Shown here in pieces: positions 3,232 to 27,563 of a stretch of DNA of 38,309 nucleotides. Every line of letters starts with the position of its first letter. Within the stretch, counting starts at the first letter, position 1. Origin of the DNA: Dehalococcoidia bacterium (GTDB lineage: Bacteria > Chloroflexota > Dehalococcoidia > Lucifugimonadales > Lucifugimonadaceae); NCBI GenBank assembly GCA_026421185.1, contig JAPKCH010000013.1:1-38309 (forward strand), in the 5' to 3' direction. Position numbers and translations under genes: made by a program. The notes beneath the pieces were generated by a model, which had not been told where the DNA came from, made no database searches, and worked only from the letters and a program-made list of their open reading frames with translations.

Positions 3232-3582
3232 TTGCTAAACGACGGCCTTACCTTGAGTCTGGTTGGCATGGGCATAGTTTTTGCCGTATTGGCAATATTG
3301 GCTTTGTCGATTAAAGGCATAAGCCTGCTCGATCGTAAGCCATTGTCTAGTCCCGCATCAGAGCCGGTTGTATCGGCTCCTGTCGTACAAGTGACTAGTG
3401 ATGGCATCACTGGAGAACAGGTTGCTGCTATTGCAGTAGCGCTGGCTCTTTCCGAGCCGAAATCGTCATCAATCGGCGCAACAATCTCACGAGTGGGATC
3501 AACGGCCGATTCATGGCTACAGAGTGGACGTATACGTGCGCTCGGATCGAATTCGACTGGCGCTAGGGAGAGGCGCAATTAG
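3232..3582 (+). CDS. Na+-pumping decarboxylase gamma subunit (OadG-like)
   Basis: A small membrane protein of about 116 residues. One N-terminal membrane segment (about residues 6-28, [20 protein letters not shown]) is followed by a polar Pro/Ser/Val-rich cytoplasmic tail, the layout of OadG/GcdC-type gamma subunits that anchor biotin-dependent Na+ decarboxylases. It overlaps the biotin carrier by one base and is followed by the beta subunit, which supports the call. The start is uncertain: the TTG at 3232 has no good ribosome site, while AAGGGAG at 3202-3208 points to initiation near 3217, where the frame has only an ACG codon. The family is recognised mainly from size, hydrophobic pattern and context. 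Confidence 0.75.
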
Positions 3583-4031
3583 TGGCTACTAAGAATTATC
3601 AAATCACAATTGCTGGCCAGACCTATGACGTTGAGGTTGCGGACACTTCCACTTCTCCGGTCGAGGTTTCTGTTGACGGAACGACTTATCAAGTCGAAAT
3701 TCCTGAAATGACTGGAACGTCAACACCAGCTCCTCCGCCGATCTCTGCTCCCAAAATCGTAACTCCTGCACCACAGGCAGTTTCACGTCCGGCTGTTCCT
3801 ACTTCAGGTGGCGACGGTGTTGTACGGTCGCCGATGCCCGGCAAGATTATTAGCGTGAGCGTAGCTGCCGGAGCCGCCGTTACTAAAGGGCAGCCAATTC
3901 TGGTGCTCGAATCTATGAAGATGGAAAACACGATTGCATCGCCGATCGACGGTACAGTATCCGCAGTATTGGTTACTGCTGGCGACGTAGTTCAGCACGG
4001 TCAGACATTGGCCGAGATTACACAGGCATAG
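3582..4031 (+). CDS. Biotin/lipoyl carrier protein of the decarboxylase
   Basis: 149 residues in two parts joined by a Pro/Ala linker (about 45-75), as in the C-terminal biotin domain of oxaloacetate, glutaconyl-CoA and methylmalonyl-CoA decarboxylases. The N-terminal 40 residues are a short beta segment. The C-terminal 70 residues are a biotinyl domain: RSPMPGKI at 82-89 and LESMKMEN at 109-116, with Lys113 the expected biotinylation site. It carries CO2 from the carboxyltransferase to the beta subunit. The GTG start at 3582 overlaps the gamma-subunit stop by one base, with GGGAGAGG upstream. It is a free-standing carrier not fused to a carboxyltransferase, as in GcdC- or MmdC-type complexes, so the substrate cannot be read from it. 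Confidence 0.9.
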
Positions 4032-18715: not shown

Positions 18716-19696
18716 TTATCCTTTAGAGATAATTTCAGCAGCTTCGATCGCGCTGTAAGTGATGATTAGATCTGCGCCGGCGCGCTTAATCGAAGTTAGG
18801 ACTTCCATCATTGCGCGTTCTCTGTCGATCCAGCCTGCTTGACCGGCTGCGGCAATCATCGAATATTCACCGCTGACGTTGTAAGCAGCGAGTGGGGTGT
18901 CGAATCGCATCGACGCCTCTTTGATTACATCGAGGTAGGCGAGGGCGGGCTTCACCATGATTATGTCGGCGCCTTCTTCGAGATCGGCTTCGACTTCACG
19001 CATCGCCTCACGGCCTTGGCTTGGTGCCATTTGGTAGGCGCGGCGGTCGCCAAACTGAGGTGCGGAATCTGCGGCAATCCTGAACGGACCATAGAACGCT
19101 GAAGCGTATTTCGCCGAGTAGCCCATCACTGGAATATCGGAAAAATCGGCATCGTTGAGTCCTGCCCGAATCGCTGCTACCTGTCCGTCCATCATTGCTG
19201 AAGGAGCGACCATGTCAGCTCCCGCTTGAGCGTGCGAAACAGCGGCTTGAGCGAGGAGTGGGAGTGTTGCGTCGTTGTCGACATCGTTGCCATCTACTAT
19301 CCCGCAGTGGCCGTGATCGGTGTACTCACAGAGGCAGACATCGGTAATCACATATGTGTCTGGTGATGCTTTCTTGATGGCGGTTACGGCTTTTTGTACC
19401 GCTTCGTCGGGCGATGCTGCACCAGAGCCTGTGGAGTCCTTATCGTCGGGAATTCCGAACAACAGAACAGACTTCACTCCAGCTTCAGCTGCTCGCAAAG
19501 TTTCTTCAACAGCGATATCCACCGACATCTGGTCGATTCCAGGCATTGGCTCGATAGGAGTGCGAACTCCCGAGCCGTTTACGACGAAGAGGGGGTAGAT
19601 GAATTCCGACGCCGAAAGTCGGTTTTCATTGAGCATGTCGCGCAGCGTGGTACTGCGTCGTAGGCGGCGAAGGTGAGGGTATTGGTCGCTTTTCAT
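18716..19696 (-). CDS. hemB: Porphobilinogen synthase (5-aminolevulinate dehydratase)
   Basis: 326 residues, the normal HemB length. It joins two 5-aminolevulinates into porphobilinogen. DVCLCEYTDHGHCG places three zinc-site Cys at 121, 123 and 131, almost the numbers of E. coli HemB (120, 122, 130), so this is a zinc-type enzyme. The two active-site Lys are Lys196 in GYSAKYAS and Lys249 in MVKPALAYLD. The ATG at 19696 leaves a 7-base gap after cobA-hemD; the longer frame from 19729 would overlap that gene and adds a non-conserved N-terminus. It is the last pathway gene of the operon though it catalyses the first step shown here. No hemA or hemL is in the window. Confidence 0.96.
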   Translation of the reverse strand: MKSDQYPHLRRLRRSTTLRDMLNENRLSASEFIYPLFVVNGSGVRTPIEPMPGIDQMSVDIAVEETLRAAEAGVKSVLLFGIPDDKDSTGSGAASPDEAVQKAVTAIKKASPDTYVITDVCLCEYTDHGHCGIVDGNDVDNDATLPLLAQAAVSHAQAGADMVAPSAMMDGQVAAIRAGLNDADFSDIPVMGYSAKYASAFYGPFRIAADSAPQFGDRRAYQMAPSQGREAMREVEADLEEGADIIMVKPALAYLDVIKEASMRFDTPLAAYNVSGEYSMIAAAGQAGWIDRERAMMEVLTSIKRAGADLIITYSAIEAAEIISKG

Positions 19697-19703
19697 GTAC
19701 CTA

Positions 19704-21263
19704 TTATCCCTGTTTTTCGGATGATGCAACGTACGCCAAGATCGCTTTCACGATTCCGGGTATCGATTGCTCGTCGGCTTCGATGTTGTTATTTACGTTG
19801 AGCTCTTTGGCGGTATCGGCAGTAACTGGTCCGATGATTACCGTCTTGCTGGTGTTGATGAGATCGGGACTGCCACCGAGTATGTCGACCAAGTTGCGGA
19901 CGGTCGATGAACTGGTGAACGTGGTGAAGTCGACGCCTTCTTCGTAGGCGGTTCGTGCTAGATCACCAGTGTCGTTTGGCGATTCGGTTGAGTAAGCGAC
20001 CACTTCGTCGACTTTTGATCCTAGTTCACGTAGACCGGCAGCGAGGGTTTCTCGTCCGATCTCTGAGCGTGGGAACAGGACGTTCTTGGGCGTGATGCCG
20101 TCTTTCTTCAGTAGTTCGACCATAGCGCTGGCGAGGTACTGAACGGGAATGGCGTCGGCATTGATGCCGATTTCAGCGAGAGCCCTAGCGGTGGAAGGTC
20201 CGTTCACACCGAACTTGAGATGGGCGAGTGCTCGCGAGTCGATGCCAAGAGATTTCATACGATCAGCGATTCCGCGTACTGCATTTGAACTGGTGAACAT
20301 CATCCAGTCGTACTTAGAAACGTTTCGGAGTGCTTCGTCGAGTGGTTCTGGATCCTGGACTGGAACTATTTCGATGGTTGGGTATTCGAGTACTTCGGCA
20401 CCGAGATCTTCGAGTTGGTTCACCAGCTTGCTTGCTTGCGATCGTGCTCGGGTTACGAGTATCCGTTTGCCGAACAGGGGGCGAGTGTCGAACCACGCCA
20501 TTGCGTCACGGAGACCAGCGACTTCACCGATGACCAGACAAACCGGTGCTCCGATTCCTGCTTCGACACCTCGTGCAACGATTTCGCCGATTGGCCCGGT
20601 GACTACTCGTTGCTTGGGGGTTGTACCCCACTGAACGAGTGCAGCAGGTCGCTCAGTCGGAACGCCTCGAGAGGTTAGGGCAGTGACTATGTCGTTCATA
20701 CCCTTCCAGCCCATTACAAATACAAGGGTTCCAGAGAGACTTGCGAGGGCATCCCAATTGATTGTTGAGTCGGGTTTGTTTGGGTCTTCGCTTCCGGTGA
20801 CGATAGTTAATGAGGTGGACATTCCACGCTGTGTCACAGGAATCCCTGCGTAGGCAGGTGCTGCGATGGTCGACGAAATGCCGGGAACTACTTCCCATGG
20901 AACACCTGCGGCTGATAGTTCGAGTGCTTCTTCGCCACCACGACCAAATACGAAGGGATCGCCGCCTTTGAGTCGGCAAACTTTGAGTCCGCGTAGGCCT
21001 AATTCAACTAGGAGTTTGTTGGTTTCGGACTGTGTCATTCGGTGGTCGTCTCGACCTTTTCCGGCGTCGTACAGTTCTGCGTCATGACGTGCCTGAGCTA
21101 GAAGTTTTGGGGATGCGAGTCGATCAAATACGACGGCATCGGCTGTACGAAGACTTTCGAGTCCTTTGACGGTAATCAGGCCGGGGTCGCCGGGTCCTGC
21201 TCCGACGAGCACTACTTTTCCGACCGGGGTGTTGGCACCTTCGTTTTGGATGGTGTCTGACAT
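19704..21263 (-). CDS. cobA-hemD: Uroporphyrinogen-III C-methyltransferase / uroporphyrinogen-III synthase fusion
   Basis: 519-residue two-domain protein. Residues about 15-255 are the SAM-dependent SUMT domain: VGAGPGDPGL (20-29), CRLKGGDPFVFGRGGEE, then VVPGISS and AYAGIPVTQRG. It methylates uroporphyrinogen III twice to give precorrin-2. Residues about 265-515 are a HemD domain (GKRILVTRARSQASKLVNQL start, FTSSNAVRG in the middle, FTFTSSSTVRNL-like later segment), which closes hydroxymethylbilane into uroporphyrinogen III. Fusion of consecutive activities channels the substrate toward the siroheme/cobalamin branch. It begins 3 bases after hemC and ends 7 bases before hemB. The fusion is known in several bacterial phyla. 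Confidence 0.95.
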   Translation of the reverse strand: MSDTIQNEGANTPVGKVVLVGAGPGDPGLITVKGLESLRTADAVVFDRLASPKLLAQARHDAELYDAGKGRDDHRMTQSETNKLLVELGLRGLKVCRLKGGDPFVFGRGGEEALELSAAGVPWEVVPGISSTIAAPAYAGIPVTQRGMSTSLTIVTGSEDPNKPDSTINWDALASLSGTLVFVMGWKGMNDIVTALTSRGVPTERPAALVQWGTTPKQRVVTGPIGEIVARGVEAGIGAPVCLVIGEVAGLRDAMAWFDTRPLFGKRILVTRARSQASKLVNQLEDLGAEVLEYPTIEIVPVQDPEPLDEALRNVSKYDWMMFTSSNAVRGIADRMKSLGIDSRALAHLKFGVNGPSTARALAEIGINADAIPVQYLASAMVELLKKDGITPKNVLFPRSEIGRETLAAGLRELGSKVDEVVAYSTESPNDTGDLARTAYEEGVDFTTFTSSSTVRNLVDILGGSPDLINTSKTVIIGPVTADTAKELNVNNNIEADEQSIPGIVKAILAYVASSEKQG

Positions 21264-21266
21264 GAG

Positions 21267-22181
21267 TTAGTTAGAATTTCCTGCTACGAGCTGTCTTGCG
21301 CCACGTTCTACAAATAGTTGGCCCATTTTCTTTCCGACCTCTTCGGCGTTTGAAGCTTCGTCTACGAGGCTTTCCCGTATGACCTGCATGCCATCGGGCG
21401 TTGATGCAAAAGCTGAAAATTCGAGTCGTTCGCCTCGGATTTTTGCGTGTGCTGAGACTGATGCTGAGCAGCCGCCGCCGATTTCGTCCAAGAAGGCTCG
21501 TTCGGCAGTTACTTCGAGGAGTGTCTCTTTGTGATTGATCTTCGTGGCGATCGCTGCGGTTGTTGCGTCACTTGCACGAGTTTCAAGAGCGAGTGCACCT
21601 TGTCCGACGGCAGATACGAAATTAGAGCACGAAAGGTGCTGGGTAATTCGTTCTTCAAGGCCGAGTCGTTTTAGTCCAGCTGTAGCTAGGATTACGGCGT
21701 CTGGACCGTCTGTCACATCGAGTTTGGCGAGCCGGGTTGGAACGTTTCCTCGGAGTGATTCGACTACTAGATCGGGGCGTATGTTTTTCACTAGAGCTTG
21801 ACGTCGTGCGCTTCCGGTAGCGATTCGAGATCCGGCGGGAATTTCTTCGAGTGTTTCGCCATTTCGACTAATGAAAGCGTCACGTGGGTCTTCACGAAAA
21901 GGTACGGCAGCAAGAGCGAATTCAGGCGGAAGCGACGATTGCATGTCTTTAAGACTGTGCACCGCTAGATCGATTCGTTTGTCGAGTAGTGCGGCTTCTA
22001 ATTCGCGAACGAATACGCCAACGCCCAGCTCAGAAAGATTCTGACGCTGGTCGATATCTCCGGTCGTTTTGATTACGACAATTTCGAATTCAACCTCAGG
22101 ATTTTCTTCCTTGAGTGCGTCGACCACTTGACCGGTCTGCGTAAGAGCCAACTCACTTCCGCGTGTTCCGATTTTAATCAA
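21267..22181 (-). CDS. hemC: Hydroxymethylbilane synthase (porphobilinogen deaminase)
   Basis: 304 residues. It polymerises four porphobilinogens into hydroxymethylbilane. The N-terminal IGTRGSELALTQT, the catalytic-Asp motif HSLKD (Asp79), ATGSARRQAL (121-130) and the cofactor loop GGGCSASVSAHA with Cys238, to which the dipyrromethane cofactor attaches, are all present. It starts at TTG 22181, 24 bases after the Met8-like stop; the ribosome site is weak, so translation may be coupled to the gene upstream. Its stop is 3 bases from cobA-hemD. Confidence 0.96.
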   Translation of the reverse strand: MIKIGTRGSELALTQTGQVVDALKEENPEVEFEIVVIKTTGDIDQRQNLSELGVGVFVRELEAALLDKRIDLAVHSLKDMQSSLPPEFALAAVPFREDPRDAFISRNGETLEEIPAGSRIATGSARRQALVKNIRPDLVVESLRGNVPTRLAKLDVTDGPDAVILATAGLKRLGLEERITQHLSCSNFVSAVGQGALALETRASDATTAAIATKINHKETLLEVTAERAFLDEIGGGCSASVSAHAKIRGERLEFSAFASTPDGMQVIRESLVDEASNAEEVGKKMGQLFVERGARQLVAGNSN

Positions 22182-22205: not shown

Positions 22206-22916
22206 TTAATGCTTGGGTAATGGTGTTTCTATCCTTTGACAGGAACCAAATGGAGTACATGAAACACAAGCAACACTTTTGATTCCCTCTATTAGATCCG
22301 CCTTAGCTTGTTTAGGGTCTAACTTCTCTGCTTTGTCCAACCACTCGGGTGTCATGAACCACTGCCATTTTTCAGGGCAACAGACGATTTTTTGACTTCG
22401 TGTAGTTTTTCTAACATCCGTCAAAATAGGACCTACATTGGCCCATCTCATACATTGACATGAATCGGATGTGATTTCTTCGCGTAATCTTCTTGCTAAT
22501 GCAGGGCTTGTTCCTGCCGTAGAAACGGCTAATGTGATGTCGTTTCGATGAATCAAAGCGGGGGCTATCCAAGTGCATAGGGGCGTGACGTCCATCACGT
22601 TTAACAAAATATTTCGCTCGGTTGCTTCTCTTGAAATTGCTTCGTTAGTTTCCATAGACGATGTGTCGGCGACGATAACGATCCATGCACCGGCGAGATC
22701 ACCAGCTTGGTATTTTCGGTTGATCCATTCGATCTCACCGTCGTCGGCCTGCGCACGAAGTTTCTCCGAGATTTCGTCGTCGGGACTGAACAACTTTACA
22801 GTTGCTCCGCATTCAAGCAGGTAGTTAACTTTGCGTTCGCCTTCGTGGGCATCGCCACCGAAGACGATTCCTAGGCGTTCTTTCACATCGAGGTACATTC
22901 CGTAATAGCGCGGCAC
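22206..22916 (-). CDS. Precorrin-2 dehydrogenase / sirohydrochlorin ferrochelatase-like (Met8/CysG-N) with Cys-rich tail
   Basis: 236 residues. Residues 1-150 match the Met8/CysG N-terminal Rossmann fold, which oxidises precorrin-2 to sirohydrochlorin and may insert iron. Visible marks are a modified nucleotide loop (GGDAHEGERK, 20-29, in place of GGGxVAxRK), NVMDVTPLCTWIAPAL with Asp109 where CysG has its catalytic Asp, and STAGTSPALARRLREEI (132-148). The C-terminal 85 residues are unusual: Cys153 and 155 (CxC), Cys179 and 180 (CC), and Cys217, 220 and 226 (CxxC then x5 C). Seven Cys in such spacing suggest a metal or Fe-S site. The GTG start follows GGAGA by 5 bases. It lies between ahbAB and hemC. 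Confidence 0.88.
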   Translation of the reverse strand: MPRYYGMYLDVKERLGIVFGGDAHEGERKVNYLLECGATVKLFSPDDEISEKLRAQADDGEIEWINRKYQAGDLAGAWIVIVADTSSMETNEAISREATERNILLNVMDVTPLCTWIAPALIHRNDITLAVSTAGTSPALARRLREEITSDSCQCMRWANVGPILTDVRKTTRSQKIVCCPEKWQWFMTPEWLDKAEKLDPKQAKADLIEGIKSVACVSCTPFGSCQRIETPLPKH

Positions 22917-22976: not shown

Positions 22977-24014
22977 TCAGCTGATTGGCTGAAGCTCTTC
23001 AACTACGAATTCGTCTTCTACGAAGTATCGAACTCGAGTCTTTTTAAATTCACGAAGGCTATAAACGAGTGCTCGCTCGTCCATGCCCGTTGCTTCGGCT
23101 ATCTCATTACCGAAGCGTTCACATTCTTCTGCCGATGTTCCGTGAACCATCGTGAAGTGCGAGTATGGCCAGTCATCGTAGATTGGTCGTTGGTAACAGT
23201 GGGTTACTGCTGGGTGCTTAGCCATGATGGTTCCGATTTCTTCGGAACGCTCTTCTGGAACTTTCCAGACGATCATTGCGTTTGATGAGAAGCCGGCGCG
23301 TCGATGGTGCAGCACTGCACTGTATCGGCGCATTATCTTCTGTTCGACTAGTTCGTCAGCTCGGGCGAACAGTTCCTCGACGGTCATGTCGAGTTGTTCG
23401 GCCATTGCATCGAACGGACGTGAAACGGGCGCAAGATCTTCTTGCATCACTTTTACGTAGTCGATGATGTCCTGAGTAACATCTGGCGAAGATGTGCTTG
23501 TCGTTCCTTGATCATCGGGTCGGTAGCCTTTAGTGGCGCTAGATTTACCCTTGACCATGTCGAAGTTCACACCGATTTTGAAAAATTTGATCGTTGGTAG
23601 AAGTCGGGTAGTTGTGGCGCCAGTGAGTTTGGCGAGCATTCCGATATCGCCTTCGAGAGAACGCTCGGGCGGAACTGCGATTGTGAACCAGAGATTGAAG
23701 TTGCCGTCTCGTTCGTAGTTGTGGCTAATTCCAGGGTGACGGTTGAGAAAGCGCGCTGCCTTATCGAGTTTGTCCTCAGGGAACTGCATAGCTACGAGCA
23801 TCGACTGGTACTTGAGTTTCCTCGTATCGAAAATTGCGCCGATTTGTCGAACAACATTCTTTTGACGCAGGACGCCGATTCTGTCGATTACGTCTTGTTC
23901 TGACGTCCCAAGAGATTCTGCTATTGCTTTGTATGGTTCTACAACCAGCGGGAAGGCTGCTTGAATAGCGTTCATGATCTCGCGATCCATCGGATCAAAT
24001 TCATCAAAGGGCAT
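22977..24014 (-). CDS. ahbAB: Siroheme decarboxylase, fused two-subunit form (AhbA/AhbB, Lrp/AsnC-like)
   Basis: 345 residues made of two tandem Lrp/AsnC-like halves, each with a winged-helix part then a ferredoxin-like part. Half one (1-160) ends with HPGISHNYERDGNFNLWFTI (from 93); half two has RRYSAVLHHRRAGFSSNAM and then HPAVTHCYQRP (267-277) with WPYSHFTMVHG. These His/Tyr-rich motifs mark the siroheme decarboxylases AhbA/AhbB and the related NirD/L/G/H, rather than transcription factors. The enzyme removes two acetate carboxyls from siroheme to give 12,18-didecarboxysiroheme. Ahb subunits are often separate; here they are one chain joined by a Ser/Thr linker near 165-180. ATG 24014 is chosen over the frame opening at 24050, which adds no conserved residues. 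Heme d1 synthesis is the alternative role. Confidence 0.9.
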   Translation of the reverse strand: MPFDEFDPMDREIMNAIQAAFPLVVEPYKAIAESLGTSEQDVIDRIGVLRQKNVVRQIGAIFDTRKLKYQSMLVAMQFPEDKLDKAARFLNRHPGISHNYERDGNFNLWFTIAVPPERSLEGDIGMLAKLTGATTTRLLPTIKFFKIGVNFDMVKGKSSATKGYRPDDQGTTSTSSPDVTQDIIDYVKVMQEDLAPVSRPFDAMAEQLDMTVEELFARADELVEQKIMRRYSAVLHHRRAGFSSNAMIVWKVPEERSEEIGTIMAKHPAVTHCYQRPIYDDWPYSHFTMVHGTSAEECERFGNEIAEATGMDERALVYSLREFKKTRVRYFVEDEFVVEELQPIS

Positions 24015-24198
24015 AGTTATGTGCTGCTCTATGGGCCAGGCTTTCCTCAATTTAGTGACGAGGAAAACAATAGTGGATGCTCTACGTAAAATTGTATCTC
24101 AACGGTCGAGAAATCTGTACCTGAATGGGTCATGAAACTTTGGGAGATTTTTTGTTCTTTAACGTGCGTACTAACTACTATTTCTTTACATACACGAG

Positions 24199-24232: not shown

Positions 24233-25615
24233 TTAGATCAACGATAAAGGCTGTGAAGATCGTTCGCCTGTGCCGGTGTCTTCGACTATGTACTCAGCCG
24301 CAAGGTTACCGCTTCGCACTGCTGATTCCATCGTGGAAGGCCAACCCGTATCGGTCCAATCACCAGCAAGGTAGAAGCCTGGAAGTGGCGTTCGCTGGGT
24401 GAGTCGCAGCTTTTGCGATCCTGGCAATACCCTGAACGTTGCTTCAAGCATTTTTACGACGGTGAATTTAGTGATCGTTGCGGATTGTGCGGCAGGGAAT
24501 ATCTTTGCCATTTCTCCCGTGAAAATCTCACGTAACTCTTGTTTAGTCCTGTCTTGCCATTCCCATGCTCCGCTGAGAGATATGACGATGTGCTGACCGG
24601 ATTCTTCTCGAGATTTAAGATCGGTGTCATTGAAGACCCACTGTAATGGTGAGTCGAGAGTTGCTACGAATTTTTCAGTGAGAACGGGTCGGTCGTACCA
24701 GATGTGCACTGCGACAATTGGTGCTGTTTTGACTGTTTTAGCGGGTGTGAAAAAATCTGTTGATTCGGCGGAACCTTCCGGTATGAGCGGAGTCATTGCG
24801 GCGGCTGGGACTGCCGAAACTACTGCTTCGCCTTCGATTAGTTCGCCATTTACGGTGTACGCACCTGCTATACGACCTTTGGCGATATGGAGCGATTCGA
24901 CATCGACGCCTGTTCGTATTTCACCGCCATTCGATTCGATGTATTTTTTAGCATTTTCACCGACTAGCGTTGAAAGTCCTGACAACGGAATTCCCATTGC
25001 TGGGTTTTGTGCTGCGCCGAGCAGGGCTACTTTGAATAGCTGGATTCCGGTGTGGGCACTAACTTCTGTAATGTCGTCGTTTAATGACGGCAGGATAATC
25101 AAGTTCCAGAAATTCTGTATGGTCTCGTTATTTTGACCGTGATCTCGGAGCCACTCATCGAACGTTATTAGGTCGTGAAACGAGTTCATGCTGAGCCGGG
25201 TGAATTTGATGCTCAAAAGTCCCCAGAGAATCATGAGTTTGCCCGTTAGTCCAACGTGCCTGTACCCAAGTAGTGCTGAAAGATTAGCTAGTGCGCCCGG
25301 TAGTTTTCTTGCCTTGAGCCAACTGGTTTTGCCGCGTTTTAAAACGGGGAATCCGATTCGCTTTTCTAGCTTGATTTGATCAGATGCGCCGATATCTTTG
25401 ATGTACTGCTGGAACTGATCGCAGGCTCCTATGAAAACGTGTTGGCCGTTATCGATTTCAATGCCGGTATCACTATCAACGAAAGAGAATGCTCGACCGC
25501 CCAAGAATGGGCGTTTCTCTAGAACTATAGGTTTAATGCCGTATCGGATCAGTCGTACAGCTGTGGCTAGTCCGGCAATACCGCCGCCAATGATGACTAC
25601 GGTTCGTGTTGGCAT
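24233..25615 (-). CDS. hpnE: Hydroxysqualene oxidoreductase (FAD-dependent, HpnE)
   Basis: 460-residue flavoprotein of the amine oxidase/phytoene desaturase family. The dinucleotide fold GGGIAGLATAVRL opens at residue 9, with an acidic Glu at the end of the second strand (VLEKRPFLGGRA), and DNGQHVFIGA (about 56-65) is the HpnE-specific variant of the family motif. The C-terminal FAD block reads LPGFYLAGDWTDTGWPSTMESAVRSG. It reduces hydroxysqualene to squalene, the last step of the HpnCDE route. It starts 3 bases after hpnD and ends the operon. Carotenoid desaturase is the alternative, but two adjacent HpnC/HpnD synthases make squalene much more likely. Confidence 0.92.
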   Translation of the reverse strand: MPTRTVVIIGGGIAGLATAVRLIRYGIKPIVLEKRPFLGGRAFSFVDSDTGIEIDNGQHVFIGACDQFQQYIKDIGASDQIKLEKRIGFPVLKRGKTSWLKARKLPGALANLSALLGYRHVGLTGKLMILWGLLSIKFTRLSMNSFHDLITFDEWLRDHGQNNETIQNFWNLIILPSLNDDITEVSAHTGIQLFKVALLGAAQNPAMGIPLSGLSTLVGENAKKYIESNGGEIRTGVDVESLHIAKGRIAGAYTVNGELIEGEAVVSAVPAAAMTPLIPEGSAESTDFFTPAKTVKTAPIVAVHIWYDRPVLTEKFVATLDSPLQWVFNDTDLKSREESGQHIVISLSGAWEWQDRTKQELREIFTGEMAKIFPAAQSATITKFTVVKMLEATFRVLPGSQKLRLTQRTPLPGFYLAGDWTDTGWPSTMESAVRSGNLAAEYIVEDTGTGERSSQPLSLI

Positions 25616-25618
25616 GAA

Positions 25619-26557
25619 CTAAACGAACCTGATTACACGGCTGCGGAGCCAAATGACCGCTAGCAGTTTAAATTTTTGGAACTTCGAAAGACTGGCACGA
25701 TAGTTCAGTGTGTCGTAGTTGTTCTTTTCAATTCGGTCGAGAAGAATCTCGTAAACCTGAGTCATGGTTTCTGGACATTGGCGCGACTGTTTGTCGAGAA
25801 GCGGGAAAAGACGGACGCCTGCTTCAAGATATTTTCTTGCACGAGCTACCTGAAACTTCATGAAGCGAATATATTCAGGTGTAGCACGTTTATTGCGTAA
25901 ATCGTCGACCGATACACCGAATTCGGCAAGTTCTTCAGTGGGTAGGTAGACACGGTCTATTTCGAGGTCTTCGGTTATGTCACGGAGAATATTTGTTAGC
26001 TGGAGCGCTATTCCTAGATCGGTTGCGTATTCGACTGCTTGTTCGTCTTGGTAACCGAATACCTCGATGAGGGCAAGTCCGGTGGCACTGGCTACTCGTT
26101 TGCAATATTCGACAAGTTGGTCCCACGTTTGATAGGTCGTGCCGTCTAGATCCATTCGGCAGCCTTCGACGACATCAAGTAGGTGTTGCTGATCGATCGG
26201 GTAATTGTGGAGAGTGTCGCCAAGAGCTATCCACAATTCTGGAGTTGCCTCTTTGAGAACGAGTGAATCGCCTTTGGTTGAGAAATCACCGTTGTAAGCA
26301 GCTGTGAGATGCGCTTGGAGTGAGTCGAGTGCTTCACCTGTGCGGCTGCCGTAATCGCCATCATCGACGATGTCGTCGGCGATCCGGCAGAACGAGTACC
26401 CGGCATATACGGCGTTACGTTTTTCAATCGGAAGTGTGATGAAGGCGTAGTAAAAATTAGACGAGGCAGCTTTGGTCGACGCAGCTACGGCTTTGTAGGC
26501 TTTATCTATCTCTATCGGCGTTGTCACTTCGCTGGGCGCTGGCTTCTGGTCTGACAT
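25619..26557 (-). CDS. hpnD: Presqualene diphosphate synthase (HpnD)
   Basis: 312-residue head-to-head prenyl synthase of the squalene/phytoene synthase family. The two Asp-rich Mg2+ motifs are DDIVDD in the YSFCRIADDIVDD block and NILRDITED in LQLTNILRDITEDLEIDRVY. The start SNFYYAFITLPIEKRNAVYAGY fits HpnD (which has SSFYYAM at this place) rather than HpnC. It condenses two farnesyl diphosphates to presqualene diphosphate. ATG 26557 is chosen because it follows the hpnC stop by one base; the frame opens further upstream, inside hpnC. The hpnC-hpnD-hpnE order is the standard one. Confidence 0.92.
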   Translation of the reverse strand: MSDQKPAPSEVTTPIEIDKAYKAVAASTKAASSNFYYAFITLPIEKRNAVYAGYSFCRIADDIVDDGDYGSRTGEALDSLQAHLTAAYNGDFSTKGDSLVLKEATPELWIALGDTLHNYPIDQQHLLDVVEGCRMDLDGTTYQTWDQLVEYCKRVASATGLALIEVFGYQDEQAVEYATDLGIALQLTNILRDITEDLEIDRVYLPTEELAEFGVSVDDLRNKRATPEYIRFMKFQVARARKYLEAGVRLFPLLDKQSRQCPETMTQVYEILLDRIEKNNYDTLNYRASLSKFQKFKLLAVIWLRSRVIRFV

Positions 26558-26558
26558 T

Positions 26559-27563
26559 CTAGGCAGTATGCCTTTTTGTAGATTTGAAGTCACGTTTGGG
26601 AATTAGACTGATTCCAAGCTTTGAGCGAATCCAAGTCGAAGCGAATATTCGAACCTTGCCGAGTTTTGAAATTCTTGGTCGCTTACTGAGTACTGTGTAA
26701 TTTTGTTGTTCAATCGCCTGAAGAATCGCTAGTCCACCTCTCGCAAAGAGTGCGAAATCGGATTTCAGTGAACTTTCTAGATGGTTGGCGAGTGGGTAGC
26801 CATCTATGAATAGTTGGCGAGCTCGGTCGACTTGAAATCTTATCAAGGCTTCGAACTTATCATCGTGTGTTCGTTCAGTAATTTGCGATTCGGTTACACC
26901 GAAACGTTCGAGGTCTTCTTGGGGAATGTAAATTCTATCGATTTCGAGATCGACTCCGACATCTTGCCAGAAATTTGCGAGTTGTAAGCCTGTACAGGTT
27001 TTATTCGCTAGCTTGTGGAGTTTCGGATCACGTACGCCGCTGAGGTAGAGCACAAGATGCCCGACTGGATTCGCTGAGTAGGTGCAGTATTCGAGTAAGT
27101 CGTCGAAGGTTTTATGTCGAGTGATTGTCTGGTCACGTCTATTGGCTTCGATGAGGCGTTTGAATGGCTCGGATGGTATATCGAAGGTTCGGATCGTTTC
27201 AGCCAAAGCGACAAAATATGGGTGTGACGGAATGGGTGATTCGCCTGCTTGTTTGGTGGCTGAGTAGCAGGAGTCGAGTTCTTTCTCCCATAGATCGAGA
27301 AGTGCGAGTCTGTCGCCATCCGCTTCATCTCCGAGATCGTCAACACCTCGAGAAAAGGCATATATCGAGTAGAAGTGTTTCCTTAGGTGCTTTGGAAGCA
27401 GTCGTGAACCCACGCTAAAGTTTTCGTAGTGGGTCTTTGCGAGATATTCGCAAGCAGCGAATGTTGCTTCGAGGTAGCCGGGCGAATTGGAGCCGACTTC
27501 CATTTTGGGGACTGGAAGCTCAACAGCCGATGTAGCTGACTGAGTCATAGGAATTTTGGACAT
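26559..27563 (-). CDS. hpnC: Hydroxysqualene synthase (HpnC)
   Basis: 334 residues of the same synthase family as its neighbour. The HpnC-type opening THYENFSVGSRLLPKHLRKH leads to YAFSRGVDDLGDEADGDR with the first Asp-rich motif; the second is in LQLANFWQDVGVDLEIDRIY, where NFWQD is characteristic of HpnC. It converts presqualene diphosphate to hydroxysqualene. It starts 22 bases after the YjbQ-family gene. Initiation at 27563 has an AGG directly against the ATG; a second ATG five codons on (27548) is an alternative. It differs clearly in sequence from HpnD, so the two are old paralogues, not a recent duplication. Confidence 0.92.
   Translation of the reverse strand: MSKIPMTQSATSAVELPVPKMEVGSNSPGYLEATFAACEYLAKTHYENFSVGSRLLPKHLRKHFYSIYAFSRGVDDLGDEADGDRLALLDLWEKELDSCYSATKQAGESPIPSHPYFVALAETIRTFDIPSEPFKRLIEANRRDQTITRHKTFDDLLEYCTYSANPVGHLVLYLSGVRDPKLHKLANKTCTGLQLANFWQDVGVDLEIDRIYIPQEDLERFGVTESQITERTHDDKFEALIRFQVDRARQLFIDGYPLANHLESSLKSDFALFARGGLAILQAIEQQNYTVLSKRPRISKLGKVRIFASTWIRSKLGISLIPKRDFKSTKRHTA

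Follow-up and report, generated by a model that had tools for sequence, protein, structure and literature searches.

A predicted class III sirohydrochlorin ferrochelatase of SAR202 bacteria with a candidate four-cysteine metal or Fe-S site on an exchangeable C-terminal cassette

There is a met8-like gene in the window (the whole 38,309-nucleotide stretch of DNA analysed here) whose product is predicted to be a class III ferrochelatase, and comparison with its relatives tips the balance in favour of an accessory metal or Fe-S site formed by four cysteines and carried on an exchangeable C-terminal cassette. The gene is located at 22206..22916 on the minus strand and encodes a protein of 236 amino acids that belongs to the CysG-B/Met8 family of precorrin-2 dehydrogenases/sirohydrochlorin ferrochelatases and that ends in the four-cysteine cassette. 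The open reading frame begins with a GTG start codon at 22916, and the sequence GGAG is found upstream of it. The host is a SAR202 bacterium from the genus of Candidatus Lucifugimonas, which is given as a SAR202 genus in an excerpt of PMC10444878. Its nearest genomes are Chloroflexi/Dehalococcoidia metagenome-assembled genomes and Candidatus Lucifugimonas marina JH1073 (88% identity). Heme words occur zero times in the text of PMC10444878, the paper on Ca. Lucifugimonas and SAR202.

The gene is part of a minus-strand operon with the order ahbAB (upstream), met8, hemC, cobA/hemD and hemB. The upstream gene (22977..24050, minus strand) encodes a fused siroheme decarboxylase AhbA-AhbB, which matches NF040708 with 261.1 bits (cut-off 140) and NF040707 with 245.3 bits (cut-off 125). 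Downstream of met8, and likewise on the minus strand, are hemC for hydroxymethylbilane synthase (21267..22181; TIGR00212, 326.6 bits), a cobA-hemD fusion for uroporphyrinogen-III methyltransferase and synthase (19704..21263; TIGR01469, 274.7 bits, and PF02602) and hemB for porphobilinogen synthase (18716..19729; PF00490, 473.9 bits). AhbAB was not found next to met8 in 5 of 30 flanked loci (L022, L025, L027, L029 and L030), and two loci from the same genus (L045 and L046) show no DNA similarity to the window across the AhbAB stretch. Immediately upstream of this operon and in the same orientation (window positions 24233-27563), a profile search places an amine-oxidase-family flavoprotein gene, together with two genes that, judging from their translations, we take to resemble phytoene/squalene synthases. 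This is possibly a carotenoid or hopanoid gene set.

Assignment of the met8 product to its family is well supported by profile matches to TIGR01470 (106.3 bits, cut-off 62.3), PF13241 (70.3 bits, cut-off 22.1) and PF14824 (32.7 bits, cut-off 25). The nearest solved relative found by phmmer is Salmonella CysG (1pjq, E 4.4e-14), and the precorrin-2 dehydrogenase 3dfz is also among the PDB matches. The shared N-terminal part, comprising residues 1-147 (22476..22916, minus strand), contains the Rossmann fold, the loop GGDAHEGERK and the residues D109 (CysG D104) and P138 (CysG P133). In the ungapped phmmer alignment, N106, D109, P138, R142 and R145 fall on CysG N101, D104, P133, R137 and R140. According to an excerpt of PMC7018833, these CysG residues bind the tetrapyrrole, and D104 also serves both chemistries. 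Asp at the D104 position and Pro at the P133 position, the two residues expected of a bifunctional class III chelatase, are both kept, and neither D109 nor P138 varies in an alignment of 21 sequences that spans the order.

Several related enzyme types can be set aside. SirC has Ser at the D104 position and is without chelatase activity (excerpt of PMC7018833), and Asp109 here does not fit a SirC-type monofunctional dehydrogenase. SirC of Bacillus megaterium is likewise a stand-alone Met8-like protein, but it needs SirB according to the same excerpt, whereas the window genome keeps the Asp and no SirB/CbiX was found in it. A trifunctional CysG (PRK10637) is rejected because the score is 103.1 rather than 400 bits and the methyltransferase is encoded by the separate cobA-hemD gene. 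A class II ferrochelatase (HemH/PpfC) is rejected as well, since PF00762 was unmatched in the protein at E values up to 0.001. By profile, the protein shares its fold family with the CysG-B part of Salmonella siroheme synthase (1pjq; PMC7018833, in excerpt) and with yeast Met8p (1kyq). Compared with CysG, it stands alone without a fused methyltransferase and has T133 where CysG has phospho-Ser128, and only the window enzyme carries a one-residue insertion in the glycine-rich loop and the C-terminal four-cysteine cassette.

The glycine-rich loop of Met8/CysG proteins usually reads GGG-xxAExK. In the window protein, the corresponding NAD-loop segment at residues 18-27 (22836-22865, minus strand) is GGDAHEGERK, and the alteration that the sequence-only reading had noticed there amounts to one residue more than usual. 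The same extra residue (GG[DN]xHE) is found in 34 of 48 family members, tailed and tailless alike, and the loop change is therefore unrelated to the cysteine tail and was discarded as part of that feature.

There are cysteines at positions 36, 114, 153, 155, 179, 180, 217, 220 and 226 of the protein. The sequence-only reading had singled out the seven within residues 153-226, with CxC, CC and CxxC-x5-C spacing, and its count and spacing match the translation. It had also placed all seven beyond the dimerisation parts, but C153 through C180 fall inside the helical domain. To sort them by conservation, 107 matching places were collected, of which 90 were classified and 17 were not; the classified set consists of 48 sequences from the window's family and 42 others. 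The tail motif C217-x2-C220-x5-C226 (CxxCxPxGxC; 22239..22268, minus strand) is present in 13 members of the family, 12 of them in genera g1 and g12 and one in g8.

The seven cysteines have three separate conservation histories and are not one cluster, since C153 and C155 also occur in tailless relatives and C179 in only 6 of the 13 tailed sequences. The C153-x-C155 pair (22452..22460, minus strand) is present in 48 of 48 family members and is not tail-specific, while C179, the first residue of the CC pair, is confined to the genus. C180 (22377..22379, minus strand), which lies four residues ahead of the conserved Trp184, occurs in all 13 tailed and in none of the 35 tailless family members. 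All 13 tailed sequences combine C180 with C217/C220/C226, and both C180 and the tail motif are missing from the other 35 of 35 (Fisher 5e-12, with rows that are not independent). All of the tailed sequences belong to a single cassette lineage, and so this co-conservation does not represent 13 independent events. Across these sequences, C153, C155, C180, C217, C220 and C226 are invariant. Conservation of the cysteines in orthologues, on which the sequence-only reading had staked its proposal, is therefore split: they are kept throughout one cassette lineage, and the second lineage lacks them.

The last approximately 90 residues of the protein are a cassette that has been exchanged between relatives. 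This cassette, at residues 148-236 (22209..22475, minus strand), consists of the helical domain and the cysteine tail. Between the window protein and L019, a tailless sister, identity is 92% for residues 1-146 but only 35% for residues 149-214. At the DNA level, identity is about 0.9 in ahbAB, in early met8 and again in hemC, and only in between, in the final third of met8, does it drop to 0.35-0.45. This local drop is also seen when L010 is compared with its tailless relatives L021 and L023. In addition, the GC content at third codon positions of the window cassette is 0.34 versus 0.51 for the rest of the gene.

Trees of the flanks and of the cassette tell different histories. Within a single genus, tailed alleles are interspersed with tailless ones, and there are at least five changes of tail state on the AhbAB+HemC flank tree (29 rows, with L029 left out and four rows filled to 46%) and four on the N-terminal tree (51 rows). 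By comparison, the cassette tree (residues 149-214) has one change of tail state and groups the 13 tailed sequences at 100/100. Vertical inheritance of a single tailed clade is rejected by the AU test on the flank tree (p 8e-7, 12 tailed rows), and a test within the genus also rejects one tailed clade (p 3e-11). The tree tool flagged long branches, which call for caution with these trees, but the sliding DNA identity is independent of them. Two scans of viral contigs found no relative.

Which enzyme inserts the iron was addressed by a profile search of 149 genomes. Met8 is present in 103 and NIR_SIR, the siroheme sulfite/nitrite reductase, in 100 of them; 96 genomes have both and 42 have neither. 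CbiX/SirB occurs in only 5 genomes, 4 of which are the only carriers of the B12 marker CbiC, and HemH occurs in 35 genomes but in 0 of 19 from the window's genus. No CbiX, CbiK or HemH was found in the window's genome (G000). Its Met8 is the sole chelatase candidate of the pathway and, judging by this gene content, should be the iron chelatase. There are 91 genomes with Met8 and the siroheme reductase but without CbiX/SirB, and most of them are tailless. The simplest reading of this distribution is that Met8 performs ferrochelation whether tailed or tailless. It follows that chelation should run without the four-cysteine site, that iron insertion cannot depend on this site when tailless sisters have the same pathway, and that any benefit of the tail is subtle, since tailless alleles would do the same job in sister genomes.

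No genomic correlate of the tail was found: tailed and tailless members cannot be told apart by CbiC, CbiX or NIR_SIR, each across 149 genomes, or by AhbC across 26. A link to B12 synthesis is rejected because CbiC is present in 4 of 149 genomes and none of these is tailed. A link to the AhbC/AhbD heme branch, for which 26 genomes were compared with tail state, is rejected because strong tandems occur both in tailed genomes (G013, G029 and G038) and in tailless ones (G004, G006, G012 and G014).

The last steps of heme synthesis seem to be decaying while the siroheme genes are kept. In the window's genome, another contig region (L148; G000:C57:21000-28000) carries at positions 3383-3734 a remnant of AhbD that corresponds to residues 289-405, lies in two frames and has a transporter gene on one side and an enolase-like gene on the other. 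An intact AhbC-AhbD tandem occupies this place in Ca. L. marina (L149), and no other AhbC or AhbD was found in G000. Partial or broken copies are also present at L150, L151 and L152. No NIR_SIR was found in the window's genome, and in a close sister genome (L222; G011:C49:1500-7000) the sulfite/nitrite reductase gene is split over several frames. The split and missing reductases could reflect either real decay or assembly error.

We propose that the stand-alone class III enzyme would oxidise precorrin-2 with NAD+ and insert Fe2+ into sirohydrochlorin, and that the siroheme product would feed a sulfite reductase, the AhbAB heme branch or both. The C-terminal helical domain exists as two interchangeable cassettes. 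In the tailed version, one cysteine on the Trp184 helix (C180) and the tail residues C217, C220 and C226 would bind a single metal centre, which would hold the tail close against the opening of the tetrapyrrole pocket. Perhaps this centre is an accessory that stabilises the chelatase or tunes it by iron or redox state, and it would not be the iron donor.

Some support for this placement comes from a profile alignment in which Trp184 aligns with CysG W179 and C180 comes to lie at, or up to about two residues from, CysG R175, with a two-residue gap at that point. R175 contacts ring D (excerpt of PMC7018833), and a four-cysteine centre near its position would therefore pin the tail by the open edge of the pocket. 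An AlphaFold2 model built from an 11-sequence alignment has a mean pLDDT of 60.6, with values below 50 for residues 220-236 and below 40 for the final 16 residues, and is too poor to judge how near the four cysteines lie to one another. A PDB search with the tail only gave a single match (E 0.18) that we dismissed as chance.

If a centre is formed, Fe-S is our tentative first choice over zinc. Class II ferrochelatases carry a [2Fe-2S] cluster beside the active site, held either by a C-terminal CX(1,11)CX(1,11)C motif plus a distant fourth cysteine or by an internal insert, as described in an excerpt of PMC8529089. The arrangement C217-x2-C220-x5-C226 plus C180 fits the first of these motifs, here as a pattern in sequence. 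Class II PpfC/CpfC is also an iron chelatase of tetrapyrrole synthesis with three tail cysteines and one distant one, and its motif is likewise patchy among relatives, with an internal version in some lineages. However, its fold and family are unrelated to those of the window enzyme, its substrate differs, and the cluster of the window enzyme is only predicted. Closer in substrate are the Arabidopsis sirohydrochlorin ferrochelatase, with a 2Fe-2S centre (excerpt of PMC5890173), and CbiXL, with an MXCXXC 4Fe-4S centre (according to the title of a paper cited in PMC7242693). These enzymes use the same substrate as the window enzyme and have Fe-S centres, but they have the class II CbiX/SirB fold that is missing from the window's genome.

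Other four-cysteine layouts exist among relatives. There are 42 classified sequences outside the window's family; 15 have the tail CxC-x4-C and 2 have another three-cysteine tail, and each of these 17 sequences with an alternative tail places a cysteine at the third position beyond the conserved Trp (WQxC). This WQxC element is found in 18 of the 25 tailless members of the order as well and is thus not tail-specific. In the phylum beyond the order, 176 genomes gave a match and 60 places were classified, with L220 read in addition; 53 of the 60 have no tail cysteine, 5 have one and 2 have two. The last two and L220 belong to family f132 of the Chloroflexota (L206, L209 and L220), in which Met8 has CFNC or CFGC before the Trp and two tail cysteines. 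Thus, several lineages gather at least four cysteines around the same Trp helix. Such varied layouts would represent repeated evolution of one kind of site, although some of the tails may be related. One of the 42, a second Met8-like gene of 31% identity (L106; G005:C25:1-900) on a 5.2 kb contig that may be a contaminant, has a C-x3-C-x10-C-x2-C insert directly before the conserved Trp. Two HemH-type class II ferrochelatases from this order (L111 and L112) carry an internal C-x5-CC-x9-C pattern that resembles the insertion-type [2Fe-2S] motif in the excerpt of PMC8529089.

The observed cysteine conservation would also be yielded by a zinc site or a thiol switch. One possibility, which we consider unlikely yet serious, is that the four cysteines hold Zn2+ in a knot whose role is structural only, keeping the C-terminal tail in place, with no part in iron or redox chemistry. 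Four invariant cysteines with a CxxC element, confined to one cassette, are what such a knot would look like, and the easy turnover of zinc sites fits the variable layouts and the losses; however, the precedent among chelatases is Fe-S, namely in the class II, Arabidopsis and CbiXL enzymes (excerpts of PMC8529089, PMC5890173 and PMC7242693). It is improbable that the cysteines form no stable metal centre and act instead as a thiol/disulfide redox switch or as a binding site for NO or for signals of metal stress. The CC and CxxC elements and the marine aerobic setting would suit such a switch, but the CC pair is incomplete in the tailed sequences that lack C179 (it is present in 6 of 13), and four invariant cysteines rather than two favour a metal site.

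The remaining alternatives concern what the cysteines do. The sequence-only reading had suggested a metal or Fe-S site that loads iron into sirohydrochlorin. Its first half survives, as the conserved four-cysteine set does look like a metal or Fe-S site. Iron entry or loading through this set, by contrast, is very improbable: it sits on the pathway's only chelatase candidate, and the alignment puts C180 close to the pocket (with CysG as in the excerpt of PMC7018833), but 35 of 48 family orthologues are without the tail and C180, most such genomes have a siroheme reductase and no CbiX, and CysG and yeast Met8 manage without a site of this kind. Least credible of all is that the tail is simply carried along as a neutral part of a recombined cassette. 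It has been swapped in and out several times, and the window copy is AT-richer at third positions; yet C217, C220, P222, G224 and C226 are the sole invariant columns in residues 215-236, and in the three closest tailed pairs the 20 tail codons show a dN of 0 against a dS of 0.14-0.43. The tail region evolves under purifying selection. Accessory binding of an Fe-S or other metal centre remains the reading that we prefer.

No description of a cysteine-rich tail on a Met8-type enzyme was found in titles and abstracts of the searched literature on precorrin-2 dehydrogenase and siroheme synthase. PMC8529089 leaves out sirohydrochlorin ferrochelatases, and Met8 has no matches in its text. An excerpt of this paper ties the ferrochelatase [2Fe-2S] motif to aerobic life and terms its function undefined, after 27 years according to the authors. 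We tentatively suggest that a Met8-type ferrochelatase may have evolved its own four-cysteine Fe-S centre in parallel to class II, in several independent cysteine layouts about a single helix, and that marine SAR202 bacteria swap the cassette bearing it with a cluster-free version through recombination.

A second, unrelated class of iron chelatase shows a four-cysteine pattern that matches the one in class II. The near-matched natural pairs, which differ only in the last approximately 90 residues while their first 146 are 92% identical, provide a test of what the putative centre would add, and its contributions could include stability, iron sensing, redox gating or metal selectivity. The tailed allele also occurs in the genome of strain JH1073 of Ca. 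Lucifugimonas marina, a species that has been cultivated. The analysis also identifies the likely siroheme ferrochelatase for most members of this large marine group, in which CbiX is missing.
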